In this document: positions 21,868 through 26,126 of the stretch, piece by piece | How positions within the stretch are numbered: the stretch's first letter is position 1 | Layout: every line of letters starts with the position of its first letter | IMG/VR virus record: IMGVR_UViG_3300032213_001468 | Coordinates: 1 to 28,664 of that record | DNA from: a virus | Reading direction: 5' to 3' (one strand) | Length of the DNA: 28,664 bases | Made by a program: the position numbers and the translations under genes | Notes under the pieces: model-generated | What the model saw: only the letters and a program-made list of their open reading frames with translations | What the model was told of the DNA's origin: nothing | The model's database searches: none

Positions 21868-22635
21868 ATGACTGGTTACGAAATAGACAATTACCTTTTT
21901 GACCTGGTGAATTCTGAAAGAATAACCATGCAAGCCTATGCCGTCGGGCACTACATCAAAAAGATTCAGAATTTCAAGAATGTACACGTGTTCACTGTGA
22001 TCATTTCATCCATGGCTACAACGCTCAATATTAGCCGTCAATCAGCATCAAAATACTTCGATGAACTGGTGAATGTTGGATTCATTAAAATCGTTGAATT
22101 GACCTCGAATAAAGGTGCAAAAGTTTACATTGATTGCAACATCCATGTTAAAAGTGATGTTAAAAATATTAACACCGAAATAGACAGTAAAGATGTCGAT
22201 GTTAAAGGTGATGTTAAAAGTGATGTTAAAAGTGATGTTAAAAATTTTAACACATTAAAGAAAGAAGAAAAAAGAAAAAAGAACTTATCTACTTATACTA
22301 GTAGTAGTAGTATTAAGGAAAGTTTCCAAAATTTGAAACCATCCGACTGCAAAGACTACATCAACGAACAATTGGAGCTTCACCTTCACAACATCAAGCA
22401 AGCAACCGGTTACTCCGTGGAGCAAATACGAACTGCAGTTGATATCTTTGTGAACTACCAAGAACTAGAAGCAAAAATGTACCACTTCAAAAGCGATTCC
22501 TTTAAGCACTTTGCCCACTGGATAAAACGCGTCGACCTCAACAAAGTAAACAAGCCCAAAGAGAACCGACTAACCACAAGCAACATGACCGCCGATGAAA
22601 TCGCAGAATTTGTAGCAAGCAAAATCATTAAATAA
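21868..22635 (+). CDS. Replication initiator with N-terminal winged helix
   Basis: A 255-aa protein. The N-terminal 100 residues look like a winged-helix domain (YAVGHYIKKIQNFKNV, then TLNISRQSASKYFDELVNVG, then GFIKIVELTSNKGAKVYID), as in phage replisome organisers. Residues of about 93-125 are a low-complexity charged linker of repeated DVKS units encoded by 12-bp DNA repeats. The C-terminal part (YSVEQIRTAVDIFVNYQELE, then FKHFAHWIKRVDLNK) resembles a DnaD-like or lambda O-like C-terminal region. The gene has its own promoter, operator and long leader, and is followed by a coupled-looking gene. Together with the internal iterons, this suggests the protein binds within its own gene to start replication. 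Confidence 0.72.
   Translation: MTGYEIDNYLFDLVNSERITMQAYAVGHYIKKIQNFKNVHVFTVIISSMATTLNISRQSASKYFDELVNVGFIKIVELTSNKGAKVYIDCNIHVKSDVKNINTEIDSKDVDVKGDVKSDVKSDVKNFNTLKKEEKRKKNLSTYTSSSSIKESFQNLKPSDCKDYINEQLELHLHNIKQATGYSVEQIRTAVDIFVNYQELEAKMYHFKSDSFKHFAHWIKRVDLNKVNKPKENRLTTSNMTADEIAEFVASKIIK
22145..22251. repeat. 12-bp iterons inside the initiator gene (candidate origin)
   Basis: Six tandem-type units of ATGTTAAAAGTG with minor variation: two at 22145-22168 and four at 22199-22246. Each cluster ends in a palindrome: GTTAAAAATATTAAC (22159-22173) and GTTAAAAATTTTAAC (22237-22251). An A-rich stretch follows (22257-22281). The layout is like lambda, where iterons lie inside gene O. Function as origin is inferred. 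Confidence 0.6.
22257..22313. other. A-rich tract and hairpin, possible DNA unwinding region
   Basis: Purine-rich A tract (22257-22282), then TTATCTACT (22285-22293), which is close to a DnaA box, then an inverted repeat ATACTA / TAGTAT around GTAGTAG (22295-22313). It lies just after the iterons. Ser-rich coding (SSSS) is an alternative reason for the triplet repeat. Confidence 0.4.
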
Positions 22636-22640
22636 AAAAT

Positions 22641-23411
22641 ATGACTATCAAACAAATGGAAAAAAAGGACGCGATAAAGTATCTAACCAATCAGCTCCTA
22701 AACCTTTACTCCTATTTTGGCAACAACGTAGGCATCGATGACAACCTAATACGCCAAGTGCAAACCCTACACGAAGACCTGGAAGTGTATCACTCCCTCA
22801 CAACGGATCAGTTCGAAGAAGCTTTGAAGTTCGGCCGTAGAAATGCCTCCGATTCTTTCAAGCCTTCAATCCGGTTAATCATCCAGTGGGTTTCTCAGTA
22901 CATGGTCCGGTTCAACAAATCACACCAAACAATCCACCAACTACCGGCAGCGCAAACCGAGCAAAAGAAATACGACATCAATTACTCCATGGCTCAACGC
23001 AAAGCATGGATCATTTCTTCTTACCGTCAATACCACGAAAACAACCGGGACATGGCCAAGTTCTTTGACTTCGGAGCGGTGACCTACGAAGCAATCTACG
23101 TGCACCACAGCTACGGACTTTTGAAAGAGCAAAAGGAATACTGTTTCGAAATGGCTAGCCGGTTAAATCTAACGATCATGCTCGGTTCCTTGGCATCGCG
23201 AACTGGTGATCCTACCGACTTTCGCAATAACGCAAGTGCGTGCGCCTATGCGTGTAAGCTTTTCTTTGATCAGTTCCAAACCGAGTCCGATTTAAGAACG
23301 GAATTGATGTACCATGAACCGGTAAGCAAAGATCATTTCGTGGCAGCATACGAAAAGACACCGCTCCTGGTGAACTATTTTGAAAAAAGAAACCAACCTT
23401 TTCAAAAATAA
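22641..23411 (+). CDS. Replication-region protein, function unknown
   Basis: A 256-aa soluble, mainly helical protein. It has an N-terminal region with DDNLIRQVQTLHEDLEVY and FEEALKFGRRNASDSFKPSI, and a Tyr/Gln-rich middle. There is no P-loop, primase or helicase motif, so it is not a typical DnaC or DnaB. Its place right after the initiator suggests a helicase loader or other replisome adaptor, by analogy with lambda P, but this is only position. An ATG five bases after the initiator stop supports one operon. Confidence 0.6.
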   Translation: MTIKQMEKKDAIKYLTNQLLNLYSYFGNNVGIDDNLIRQVQTLHEDLEVYHSLTTDQFEEALKFGRRNASDSFKPSIRLIIQWVSQYMVRFNKSHQTIHQLPAAQTEQKKYDINYSMAQRKAWIISSYRQYHENNRDMAKFFDFGAVTYEAIYVHHSYGLLKEQKEYCFEMASRLNLTIMLGSLASRTGDPTDFRNNASACAYACKLFFDQFQTESDLRTELMYHEPVSKDHFVAAYEKTPLLVNYFEKRNQPFQK

Positions 23412-23442
23412 TTTGCACAATTGATTTTCATTGCTATCTTTG
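23412..23442 (+). promoter_or_regulatory. Bacteroidota-type promoter for 23462 operon
   Basis: TTTG at 23412-23415, a 19-base spacer and TATCTTTG at 23435-23442, followed by TAATACCAAAAACAAACTTATG. It matches the promoters at 17201 and 18688 in box sequence, spacing and leader. It probably also drives the tRNA-like elements downstream. Confidence 0.9.
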
Positions 23443-23461
23443 TAATACCAAAAACAAACTT

Positions 23462-23719
23462 ATGACACACGATTTAGAATTCGACGACTTCATTGTTTAT
23501 TTCGAGAACCCTTGGAATAAGCAAATCAAGATCACCAAGATTACGGATTACGAAGATAACGTAATCGAAAAGAGCGATCGAGAACTTGACCGCATCCACA
23601 AACAGATTTACAGCCATTGCGAGTACAACGATTGGTTTGGTGAGCGCGAAAAGTTTACCTACGTTGATGAATGGTTCCAACAAAACATCGACTTCGACAA
23701 AGCGAGGGGAATTATTTAA
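23462..23719 (+). CDS. Hypothetical acidic protein, 85 aa
   Basis: Small acidic protein rich in aromatic residues (FIVYFENPWNKQIKITKI, later YNDWFGEREKFTYVDEWF). No family is recognised. High negative charge and small size are features shared by DNA-mimic inhibitors, but nothing specific supports that here. It is the first gene after a full consensus promoter, so it is probably expressed early. It ends seven bases before the first tRNA-like element. Confidence 0.65.
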   Translation: MTHDLEFDDFIVYFENPWNKQIKITKITDYEDNVIEKSDRELDRIHKQIYSHCEYNDWFGEREKFTYVDEWFQQNIDFDKARGII

Positions 23720-23725
23720 AACAAA

Positions 23726-23806
23726 AGTCAGGTAATGCGTAATGTGAAAATGGCATCACATCCTTAGGTGGTTGCATCGTTGCAGGTTCGAGTCCTGTCC
23801 TGACTG
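23726..23806 (+). tRNA. tRNA-like element 1 (non-canonical middle)
   Basis: Perfect acceptor stem AGTCAGG (23726-23732) / CCTGACT (23799-23805) with discriminator G, and a normal T-arm GCAGG-TTCGAGT-CCTGT (23782-23798). A D-arm-like hairpin GTGA-AAATGGCA-TCAC (23744-23759) has the expected GG, but it starts 11 bases after the acceptor instead of two; ATGC / GCAT at the normal D-stem place is an alternative. The best anticodon loop, CTTAGGT (UAG, Leu), has only three stem pairs. CCA is not encoded. It is 81 bases long. It may be a degenerate or specialised tRNA; amino acid identity is uncertain. Confidence 0.6.
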
Positions 23807-23820
23807 CTAAGTAAAGGTTC

Positions 23821-23859
23821 TCGATTTAATAGACTTTTCAAACTTAATAACCAAATCGA
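23821..23859. repeat. Inverted repeat between the tRNA-like elements
   Basis: TCGATTT (23821-23827) and AAATCGA (23853-23859) are perfect 7-base arms around a 25-base loop. A further small hairpin GCTG-GAAAGA-CAGC follows at 23865-23878. They may be processing or folding elements of the RNA between the two tRNA-like units. No U-run follows, so they are not intrinsic terminators. Confidence 0.4.
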
Positions 23860-23882
23860 TGACAGCTGGAAAGACAGCAAAC

Positions 23883-23979
23883 AGTCAGGTGATGTAATTG
23901 GTAACACTACGAAGAGGTAGTCGCTGAAACGTTCAGAATGACCCAAACTGAAATGCAGGTTCGAGTCCTGTCCTGACTG
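23883..23979 (+). tRNA. tRNA-like element 2 (97 bases, non-canonical)
   Basis: The acceptor stem AGTCAGG / CCTGACT, discriminator G and T-arm are identical to element 1. The D-arm is canonical (TGT-AATTGGTA-ACA, 23893-23906). The next hairpin, ACTAC-GAAGAG-GTAGT (23906-23921), has a 6-base loop without the universal T33. A second hairpin CTGAA-ACG-TTCAG (23924-23936) could be a class II variable arm, and 18 extra bases follow, including a repeat of CTGAA at 23948. No normal 5-bp/7-base anticodon arm can be drawn. It is most likely a real tRNA-derived RNA, but possibly not an ordinary decoding tRNA. Confidence 0.55.
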
Positions 23980-23991
23980 CAAAACAAACCA

Positions 23992-24312
23992 ATGATTAAA
24001 CGCTCAAAATACAACAACAAGAAAACAAGTATTGACGGCATCACCTTCGATAGCAAGAAGGAAGCCGATAGATACGTTTCTTTGACGCTTAGAGCGAAGA
24101 TCGGGGAGATACTGGACTTACACCTTCAGACGCCATTTGTCTTCTCTTTAGACGGCAAAAAAATGTTTACGTACAAAGCTGACTTCATGTACTACGATAC
24201 GATCACAAACAAGACGGTAATCGAGGACGTGAAGGGAATGCGAACGCCGTTGTATAAATTGAAGAAGAAGTTGATCGAGCACCAACACAAAATCACAATC
24301 ACGGAAACATGA
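23992..24312 (+). CDS. DUF1064 nuclease (putative Holliday junction resolvase)
   Basis: A 106-aa protein with the full DUF1064 pattern: KYNNKKTSIDGITFDSKKEA (7-25, E24), then ADRYVSLTLRAKIGEI and LHLQTPFVF, then YKADFMYYD (D64) and VIEDVKG (E78 to K81), followed by a basic helix. The E, D and ExxK-type residues fit a PD-(D/E)xK nuclease fold. It probably cuts recombination or branched DNA before packaging. The stop overlaps the next start (ATGA). It is slightly shorter at the C-terminus than many relatives. Confidence 0.9.
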   Translation: MIKRSKYNNKKTSIDGITFDSKKEADRYVSLTLRAKIGEILDLHLQTPFVFSLDGKKMFTYKADFMYYDTITNKTVIEDVKGMRTPLYKLKKKLIEHQHKITITET

Positions 24313-24680
24313 GACACCCATTTGACAAATACAAATTCAATCGCTTTGGTTTTGAGATCGGCCAAGAACTGGAATGGTTCGAATGGCTGCACAATTACAA
24401 AGCTTGCCTTAAAGAATACAGAAAGCAATTGAAGCAAGATCGTTTTGACGATGAAGATACCCTTCAGAAATTCATTGCCAACAAAGAGGAGCTGCTTCAA
24501 ATCACCAGCACAATTAACCAGTTCGCTTCCAAGTTCGCATTCCGGCCCTATCACAAATCTTTCTTGGAGTCCAAAAAAATAGACAAGGCGGACCTATTGA
24601 GGTTCAAAAATATCTTGTTAAAAAACTACGAAGAAAGCGAAAAGAAAGACGCAAAGTATTATCTTTCAATCATTAAATAA
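24309..24680 (+). CDS. Hypothetical helical protein, 123 aa
   Basis: A charged, helical protein (ELEWFEWLHNYKACLKEYRK, later KADLLRFKNILLKNYEESEK). No motif is recognised. It is coupled to the DUF1064 nuclease by ATGA, so a role in DNA processing is possible but unproven. No signal peptide or membrane segment. Confidence 0.65.
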   Translation: MRHPFDKYKFNRFGFEIGQELEWFEWLHNYKACLKEYRKQLKQDRFDDEDTLQKFIANKEELLQITSTINQFASKFAFRPYHKSFLESKKIDKADLLRFKNILLKNYEESEKKDAKYYLSIIK

Positions 24681-24681
24681 A

Positions 24682-24722
24682 AACTGAACGATAATTTCAG
24701 TTATCGCACATTTAAACGATAA
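24682..24722 (+). promoter_or_regulatory. Mutually exclusive hairpins in intergenic gap
   Basis: AACTGAA (24682-24688) pairs with TTCAGTT (24696-24702), while CGATAA (24689-24694) pairs with TTATCG (24701-24706). The pairs interlock, so both cannot form as simple hairpins; they could form a pseudoknot or switch. CGATAA recurs at 24717-24722. There is no U-run and no recognisable promoter. It lies 31 bases before the next gene. Confidence 0.4.
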
Positions 24723-24752
24723 ACAATTCATTAACCCATAAAAACCAAAATT

Positions 24753-24944
24753 ATGAATGAAACAATGACCATCACCGTTGCAATTGCAACAAACGAGGAA
24801 ACCACAACAATCAACGTGGAGTTTCCGTACACTGGAACGATTAAAGACCTCGAAGCGTTTATTTCACACAGCCACCTAATGGCCTACCGGTTAGGCTATG
24901 CCGACCAGACGGTAGACGAGGTGAAGCAAAGAATAATACTCTAA
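24753..24944 (+). CDS. Hypothetical protein, 63 aa
   Basis: A small acidic protein rich in Thr and Glu (MTITVAIATNEETTTINVEF), with a beta N-terminus and a helical C-terminus. No family is recognised. The upstream sequence is A-rich (CCATAAAAACCAAAATT), the usual initiation context for this host group. It is followed two bases later by the phosphoesterase gene. Confidence 0.6.
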   Translation: MNETMTITVAIATNEETTTINVEFPYTGTIKDLEAFISHSHLMAYRLGYADQTVDEVKQRIIL

Positions 24945-24946
24945 CC

Positions 24947-25825
24947 ATGGAAACAACCAAGCACGGACGTAACATCGTATCAATCCGATGCAAAGACGGC
25001 GATCAGTTCTTACTGCTATCCGATCTTCACTTTGATCACCCGAAATGTAGGCGTGACCTACTCCAAGATCACATCGAGAAAGCCATTAACCTGGGAGCGA
25101 AAATCCTGATCAATGGCGACTTCTTTTGTATCATGCAAGGAAAGTACGACAAACGAGCGAGCAAAGATGACATCCGTCCCGAGCATCAAGGCGGGAATTA
25201 CTTTGACTTGGTTGTTAACGAAGCTGTTGAATGGTGGGCAAAATATGCCGACCATTTAATTTTTGTAGGGTACGGTAACCACGAAACCGCAGTAAGCAAA
25301 CGCCACGAAATAGACCTAACCGAGCGTTTCGTTTCTTTGCTGAATTACAAGACCGGAGCGAAGGTCCTCAATGGTGGGTATGCCGGTTGGATCGTGTTCA
25401 ATGTGCACCGAGGCGATGCCGATAAAACGTATCTCAACTTCAAACTGAAATATCACCATGGCCACGGTGGCGGTGGAGTGGTAACGAAGGGAGTTATCCA
25501 ACACCAACGGATGGGAGCGCAGGTAGACGGTGCCGATGTTCTTTGGATGGGTCACGTGCATGAGCTTTACCATCACATCAACATCAAAGAAACTTTGCAA
25601 GTGGTAACACCTTACGAAATTAAGCAACGCATCCAGCACGATATTAGAACATCAACCTACAAAGACGAGTTTACGGACGGAGCTTTCGGTTGGCACATCG
25701 AACGGGGTGCGTATGGCAAACCAATAGGCGGGTATTTAATGCGATTGAATTACGTTCGTGATGTGAAGGAGAAAGAGCGTAATTACATCAACCCCGATTT
25801 TCAAGCGATTTATTCAAACATTTAA
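24947..25825 (+). CDS. Calcineurin-like metallophosphoesterase
   Basis: A 292-aa enzyme with all metal motifs of the family in order: DLH (D26, H28), GD (57-58), GNHE (110-113), YHHGHGGGG around H170-H173, and GHVH (202-205). It probably hydrolyses a phosphodiester or phosphomonoester with a two-metal centre. Phage members near recombination genes may process DNA ends (SbcD/Mre11-like) or other nucleotides; this one lacks the extra domain of full Mre11 proteins, and the substrate cannot be read from sequence. It lies between small unknown genes in the early/middle region. Confidence 0.9.
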   Translation: METTKHGRNIVSIRCKDGDQFLLLSDLHFDHPKCRRDLLQDHIEKAINLGAKILINGDFFCIMQGKYDKRASKDDIRPEHQGGNYFDLVVNEAVEWWAKYADHLIFVGYGNHETAVSKRHEIDLTERFVSLLNYKTGAKVLNGGYAGWIVFNVHRGDADKTYLNFKLKYHHGHGGGGVVTKGVIQHQRMGAQVDGADVLWMGHVHELYHHINIKETLQVVTPYEIKQRIQHDIRTSTYKDEFTDGAFGWHIERGAYGKPIGGYLMRLNYVRDVKEKERNYINPDFQAIYSNI

Positions 25826-25835
25826 AAACTAAAAT

Positions 25836-26126
25836 ATGGAAAACGAAAAGTATGTAGGCAAAGGTTGGGCAAACCAGTACGGGGTGAAGGTTCAACTGAA
25901 AAAACAAGATCTTCTTGACTTACCCACCAACCAGTACGGGGATATCGAGGTATTTGTAGGTCAGCGCAAAGAGGTTGACCAAAAGAGCAAAGCAACGCAC
26001 TGGGTGAAATGGAAAGCGAAGGATGCACCCATGCAAGCACCGAGCGAAATCAACCCGGCATTGAAACCAGCCATTGATAAATTGGCTCAACATGGATGGA
26101 ACACCGATAACGATTTGCCATTCTAA
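25836..26126 (+). CDS. Small protein with SSB-like C-terminal tip
   Basis: A 96-aa protein. The N-terminal two thirds (YVGKGWANQYGVKVQLKKQD, then VFVGQRKEVDQKSKATHWVK) are a small beta-rich basic domain I recognise from Bacteroidota phages without assigned function. The C-terminus, WNTDNDLPF, resembles the DDDIPF-type tip by which SSB proteins recruit partners. This suggests a single-strand DNA-binding protein or a factor that mimics SSB. The length is below that of a standard SSB (about 110-180 aa), and no certain OB fold can be proven here. Confidence 0.6.
   Translation: MENEKYVGKGWANQYGVKVQLKKQDLLDLPTNQYGDIEVFVGQRKEVDQKSKATHWVKWKAKDAPMQAPSEINPALKPAIDKLAQHGWNTDNDLPF

Follow-up and report, generated by a model that had tools for sequence, protein, structure and literature searches.

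What might two RNAs be for that have intact tRNA ends, lack a normal anticodon and stand side by side in a phage genome? We approached this question by sequence comparison throughout, starting from a virus record of 28,664 bases (the window, meaning the whole stretch analysed). The two elements, E1 and E2, lie on the coding strand between a small open reading frame and a Holliday junction resolvase gene, in a site 5' of the latter whose content varies between phages:

23435-23442, + strand: Bacteroidota-type -7 box, TATCTTTG, by sequence
23462-23719, + strand: small open reading frame (ORF) of 85 aa upstream of E1, without a PHROG match
23726-23806, + strand: E1, tRNA-like RNA of 81 nt with discriminator G73; acceptor, T-arm and a predicted nested two-stem arm, no anticodon arm (12-sequence alignment)
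23735-23777, + strand: arm of E1, with stem P2 (23735-23739/23773-23777) around hairpin P3 (23742-23747/23756-23761)
23781-23807, + strand: common 27-base 3' end, first copy (T-arm, 3' strand of the acceptor, G73, C74), by sequence
23807-23882, + strand: spacer between E1 and E2; its 3' end is hairpin GACAGCTGGAAAGACAGC, a short form of the recurring 'type A' domain
23883-23979, + strand: E2, tRNA-like RNA of 97 nt; acceptor, short D-arm, T-arm and G73, with a 50-nt module replacing the anticodon arm
23914-23948, + strand: core of the E2 module, GAGGTAGTCGCTGAAACGTT (23914-23933) and TGACCCAAAC (23939-23948), from comparison of the window, L317 and L036
23954-23980, + strand: common 27-base 3' end, second copy, by sequence
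23992-24312, + strand: Holliday junction resolvase family gene downstream of E2 (phrog_190, E 7e-35)

The -7 box is likely the promoter of a transcript running through the ORF, E1, E2 and the resolvase gene. As the preliminary description had stated, the elements share their ends: the 7-bp acceptor (AGTCAGG/CCTGACT) and the T-stem (GCAGG/CCTGT) are fully paired, with one G-U, the T-arm reads GCAGG-TTCGAGT-CCTGT, and the 27-base 3' end, TGCAGGTTCGAGTCCTGTCCTGACTGC, is identical in both. The absence of a normal anticodon arm also holds, E1 having none and E2 a 6-nt loop without U33.

The interior of E1 reads differently once relatives are aligned. In place of the misplaced D-arm and weak UAG loop first proposed, the comparative data give stem P2 (ATGCG/TGCAT) enclosing hairpin P3 (ATGTGA/TCACAT), and a 4-nt linker (23778-23781) joins this nested arm to the T-arm; because only these 4 nt separate the inner arm from the T-stem, E1 is without an anticodon arm. 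Across 12 distinct sequences 98.9% of the cells in the alignment are paired, against 29-43% in slid controls, and 13 of 23 pairs carry compensatory changes that alter both sides; P2 occurs as ATGCG/TGCAT, ACGCG/TGCGT and TTGCG/TGCAA, and P3 varies too. Single-sequence fold energy was uninformative for E1 and E2 (z about -1.4 each). E1-type RNAs have acceptor AGTCGAG/CTCGGCT in locus L130 and GGTTAGG/TCTAACC in L171, and since these acceptors differ, it is shape that is kept, not sequence alone. On this comparative evidence, a nested two-stem arm takes the place of both D-arm and anticodon arm in E1. One possible interpretation sees in the arm a D-stem whose loop has taken up a hairpin, the G's of the elbow being provided by GGTGGTT.

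For E2, the hairpin ACTAC-GAAGAG-GTAGT (23906-23921) does have the 6-base loop lacking T33 that had been pointed out; it is missing from a distant relative found in L036, L402 and L403, and so is not a conserved feature. Near-identical relatives occur in L317 and L219. Among the E2-type RNAs of the window, L317 and L036, the three distinct sequences available for comparing structure, GAGGTAGTCGCTGAAACGTT and TGACCCAAAC are kept even though the predicted pairing differs.

E1 and E2 belong to a far larger family. An exact scan of IMG/VR with a 25-mer specific to E1/E2 matched 6 contigs, three broader patterns from the 5' or 3' end, also scanned exactly, each gave at least 120 matches, and 7 contigs matched among bacterial genome bins, 3 bearing the label Chitinophagaceae or that of its member Sediminibacterium. 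We collected at least 499 elements (at least 465 distinct) from at least 282 phage loci, with up to 11 per locus; these counts are lower bounds, weighted towards AGTCAGG by the search patterns. Lengths range from 65 to 301 nt, mostly 80-130, as measured in an earlier, looser extraction. All collected elements keep the acceptor and T-arm, and most also a tRNA-Leu-like D-arm; the constant 5' end is AGTCAGGTGGCG, with D-loop type GGAATTGGTAGAC, and the T-arm most often reads ACAGG-TTCGAAT-CCTGT, its stem being replaced in some elements by others that also pair, among them GATGG/CCATC and ACAAG/CTTGT. Of 146 elements from the 5' scan, which left the discriminator position free, 129 have A there; E1 and E2 have G. 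The tRNA-Leu-like D-arm of the main scaffold, which mostly has A73, is found in 3 of 56 phage tRNA-Leu genes and in no other isotype. Conservation of AGTCAGG is partly selection bias, because AGTCAGG was in the search patterns; as a check on this bias, any 7-bp acceptor with a T-arm was sought in the loci, yielding 433 normal tRNAs and, among the abnormal, 358 elements with GTCAGG and 66 candidates whose acceptors differ, some of these 66 being normal or chance folds.

Between the constant ends the middles of the collected elements fall into about 325 (324-328) unrelated clusters. The test for compensatory change covered two of these modules, that of E1 and one from the L120 group that is unrelated to it; in the latter 7 pairs are altered on both sides and 97.6% of cells are paired, against 27-36% in slid controls. 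Unpaired module bases, too, are kept across phages, and together these patterns support selection on both the ends and the exchangeable module. The promoter type and the few genome bins point to Bacteroidota as hosts; among 197 Chitinophagaceae host chromosomes an exact AGTCAGG element occurred in one, already matched in the genome-bin scan.

Several variants and neighbours of the elements were seen alongside. In L059, L086, L088, L151, L214 and L275 an anticodon-like hairpin (loops CTTATAC, CTCATAA) precedes a D-loop-like TTGGTTA within tRNA-like RNAs of 77 nt whose acceptors vary, so that the order of the arms looks rearranged. In two phages, at L103 (4212, + strand) and L145 (4270, + strand), the D-loop of tRNA-like elements contains an inserted hairpin that itself possesses an acceptor-like stem and a T-arm-like loop (GTGGTTAGAATCCAC). 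The spacer between E1 and E2 recurs in L144, L197, L133/L315, L321-323 and L331. In its full form 'type A' is an RNA of about 121-125 nt that starts with ACACGCAC, contains TACCTCACnGTGCGTAGGTAAG, has a GGAA(T)AGAC hairpin at its 3' end and stands directly 5' of tRNA-like elements in L003, L009, L034, L058, L121, L136, L138 and L172; no Rfam match was seen for it. Nor was one seen for 'type B', a conserved RNA probably longer than 200 nt that ends CTACTCACC..ATCTCA..GGTGGGGAAACAT immediately 5' of an element (L001, L021, L030, L086, L170, L199, L209, L227, L292, L305). 'Type C', GTGTTGTTCCCTTGAGAAAGGAAT...ACAACACAGAGGACTTCTCATCCTCA, has a variable insert separating two constant halves and precedes elements in L091, L107, L109, L137, L157, L174, L186, L187, L188, L224, L250 and L302; 'type D', GGGCTAAGTNAGATACAATTCC...GGGAGTAGAATGCTT, closed by an outer stem, does so in L036, L185, L245, L276 and L305.

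Could these simply be decoding tRNAs, interrupted by introns or degenerate? The family has the 7-bp acceptor, the 5-bp T-arm with its T-loop and the processing signals of a decoding tRNA; the anticodon arm (5-bp stem, 7-nt loop, U33) is what E1 and E2 lack. E2 passes the generic Rfam tRNA model (RF00005; 33.3 bits, cut-off 29), and ARAGORN accepts 94 of the 465 distinct elements. Neither, however, amounts to a fit as an ordinary tRNA: E2 reaches its score only if 43 bases are accommodated where the model has 18, E1 does not match RF00005, and the anticodons that ARAGORN assigns are scattered, many in 6- or 8-nt loops. When ARAGORN is permitted to place introns, it gives anticodons and insert sites that are unrelated from one element to the next, on which grounds we rejected intron-containing tRNAs; the 4-nt gap in E1 leaves no room for an anticodon arm, and decay would not preserve ends and modules. 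We therefore regard a decoding role, whether intron-containing or degenerate, as very improbable, and on these comparisons E1 and E2 are neither chance folds nor decayed tRNAs. The preliminary description had suggested selection for something other than decoding, and the retention of acceptor and T-arm with decoding lost leads to the same conclusion. Phage tRNA genes (RF00005) resemble the elements in acceptor, T-arm, mostly the D-arm, and the same leader and trailer bases; they differ in that the elements have no consistent anticodon arm and carry diverse modules there instead.

Known RNAs of tRNA shape that depart from the canonical cloverleaf offer further candidates. Both tmRNA and plant-virus tRNA-like structures keep acceptor and T-arm without a decoding arm. 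We rejected tmRNA: ARAGORN called neither a tRNA nor a tmRNA in the window, there is no tag reading frame, and positions 22000-26000 gave no Rfam match to it at E<=1. Plant-virus structures terminate a viral RNA genome at its 3' end, a placement that the elements do not share. Allo-tRNAs and tRNA-Sec keep the anticodon arm and have acceptor branches of 8/4 or 9/3 (PMC7609411). They share with the elements the character of non-canonical metagenomic tRNAs, and E1 matches the tRNA-Sec model weakly (RF01852; 21 bits, below the cut-off of 47), but the elements have a 7/5 branch and no ordinary anticodon arm, and this candidate, marked by an 8/4 or 9/3 branch together with a long variable arm, was rejected too. 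That review, on non-canonical tRNAs, includes no example from a phage (PMC7609411).

If not for decoding, then, the tRNA ends may serve maturation. Compared with 625 normal tRNA genes from the same loci, the elements have T at position -1 in 81% (against 68%), A at -2 in 74% (against 62%), and C74 after the discriminator in 98% (against 90%, ARAGORN's tRNA end including this C), followed by A/T and then A. As these flanking bases equal those of normal tRNAs, maturation by host RNase P and 3'-end enzymes is likely. Exactly 4 nt 5' of A1, a Bacteroidota -7 box (TAnnTTTG) is present in 17 of 446 elements, all 17 from a few groups of related phages, and in 0 of 553 normal tRNAs; some elements thus seem to have their own promoter. 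An own-promoter element was also observed at a second insertion site, directly 3' of a terminase-small-subunit-like gene (L044, L049, L081, L100, L125, L142, L148, L175, L205, L208, L282).

Another account takes the elements as mRNA punctuation, the RNase P and RNase Z cuts parting messages or freeing upstream RNAs and the middle being filler. Most elements do lie between same-strand genes (261 of 428) and successive elements are always co-oriented (217 of 217); a cut after G73 would leave the resolvase gene an A-rich leader, CAAAACAAACCA-ATG, and other structured domains end directly before an element. Filler, however, would not retain compensatory changes and conserved loops, and relatives with an empty site, where the genes overlap or stand 3 nt apart, do without the element altogether, which makes punctuation an improbable account of the family.

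Those empty sites are part of a wider pattern of turnover. Before the resolvase gene, at least ten loci have no element (L314, L320, L325, L334, L335, L337, L339, L341-343), L324, L330 and L340 have E1 alone, the window, L321, L322 and L331 have E1 with another element, L317 has E2 first, and L313, L318 and L326 have other elements. E1 is 100% identical in L340, where the adjoining gene is 83% identical, and it is also present at other sites (L397-L400). Among 281 same-module pairs, 212 lack similarity on either flank, and in 82 of these 212 the middles share at least 90% identity. In L323 and L327 the 5' half of E2 is joined to a middle found in L315; such hybrids, and the occurrence of E1 alone or with E2 in the same site, bear out the earlier suggestion of recombination between the common halves. 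On this evidence modules pass from phage to phage and from one genomic site to another. An alternative raised at the outset, that the elements are packaging or replication signals, is unlikely: they occupy many different intergenic sites, a single locus can have as many as 11, and close relatives lack them at the same site.

Such movement, with the same modules amid unrelated flanks and sites both empty and filled, is what selfish RNA cassettes would also produce if they survived by moving from site to site, through hopping or recombination, without profit to the phage. The short duplication ACGATGATTAAA around the insertion in L321 and L322 might be taken as a trace of hopping. It is either a target duplication or a by-product of preserving both genes: L325, L334, L335, L337 and L339 have two overlapping genes here, and the duplication may only reflect keeping these intact. 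No mobility gene was seen travelling with the elements, and the structured modules are still under constraint, so that we hold out little prospect for purely selfish cassettes.

The main rival is of another kind. The first proposal of decoys for anticodon nucleases gains no support from the family, in which no conserved anticodon-loop mimic recurs among elements. Phage tRNAs known to evade such nucleases are working tRNAs with changed anticodon loops, and the study describing them mentions neither tRNA-like RNAs nor decoys (PMC10264068); the likeness lies in phage tRNAs being shaped by tRNA-targeting defence. Decoys made of acceptor and T-arm are a different matter: these could soak up defence enzymes such as Cas12a3-type tail nucleases or toxins modifying the CCA end, the anticodon having been dropped so that translation stays undisturbed. 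Cas12a3 is described from a Bacteroidetes bacterium and from other sources; the enzyme of the former, Ba1Cas12a3, contacts the tail, acceptor and T-arm of tRNA, and the tRNA loops can be removed without loss of cleavage (PMC12851939). The parts kept in the elements are thus the parts that this enzyme contacts; several copies per phage would fit a dosage effect, and acceptor stems vary with pairing preserved. The authors of the Cas12a3 work remark that viral resistance would require means as yet unknown (PMC12851939). Against this reading, the middles are constrained, with sequence and pairing conserved within each module; a pure acceptor/T-arm decoy needs no such conservation, and the conserved modules are left unexplained. 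We consider it rather unlikely.

The explanation we favour, at about an even chance of being right, is that the tRNA ends form a chassis that yields processed, stable small RNAs with exchangeable modules, probably acting on host factors. An element would form part of a longer transcript that includes its neighbours, or in some phages would have a promoter to itself; excision by host RNase P and RNase Z and the addition of CCA would then give a stable small RNA whose tRNA ends serve maturation and stability. That the module then acts in trans on a host factor is the weaker step. An antisense or guide role for the modules was rejected: 14-mer matches of the middles to phage DNA numbered 210 against 194 in the control, and the excess of 16-mers (63 versus 31) came largely from unmasked elements, beyond which there was no excess of long matches. 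Turnover at a site of the kind described here is familiar from accessory counter-defence genes, and from that resemblance we would guess at a counter-defence role.

Bacterial Y RNAs of the YrlA type join a tRNA-mimic domain to another functional RNA domain. The combination of a tRNA-like part with a further domain is common to both; unlike YrlA, the elements hold hundreds of different modules inside the tRNA fold, with no Y RNA among the Rfam matches listed. The closest functional analogy is with engineered aptamer-tagged tRNAs and tRNA scaffolds (for example PMC7590224), in which a foreign RNA module is likewise set on a tRNA chassis; these are man-made, whereas the phage elements are natural and have hundreds of modules. 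Among the Rfam matches listed for the element-rich loci, every family was a tRNA family; no record among deposited phages had both ends, and we found no description of such RNAs in the open-access papers searched. The RNA family thus appears to be both large and undescribed.

More tentatively, and with doubt outweighing confidence, the family may represent a library of hundreds of RNA effectors in Bacteroidota phages, processed and CCA-tailed, aimed at host (probably defence) factors and exchanging modules by recombination at the constant ends. Such a library would parallel, at the level of RNA, the turnover seen in genes for anti-defence proteins. If these readings are right, phages exploit the tRNA maturation of their hosts to produce stable RNAs that do not decode, and tRNA finders miss or mislabel a large set of phage RNAs, ARAGORN rejecting about 80%. 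Hundreds of natural modules would then be available for tests against protein targets, tRNA-scaffold technology would have natural precedents, and the family would bear on how phages escape tRNA-attacking immunity.
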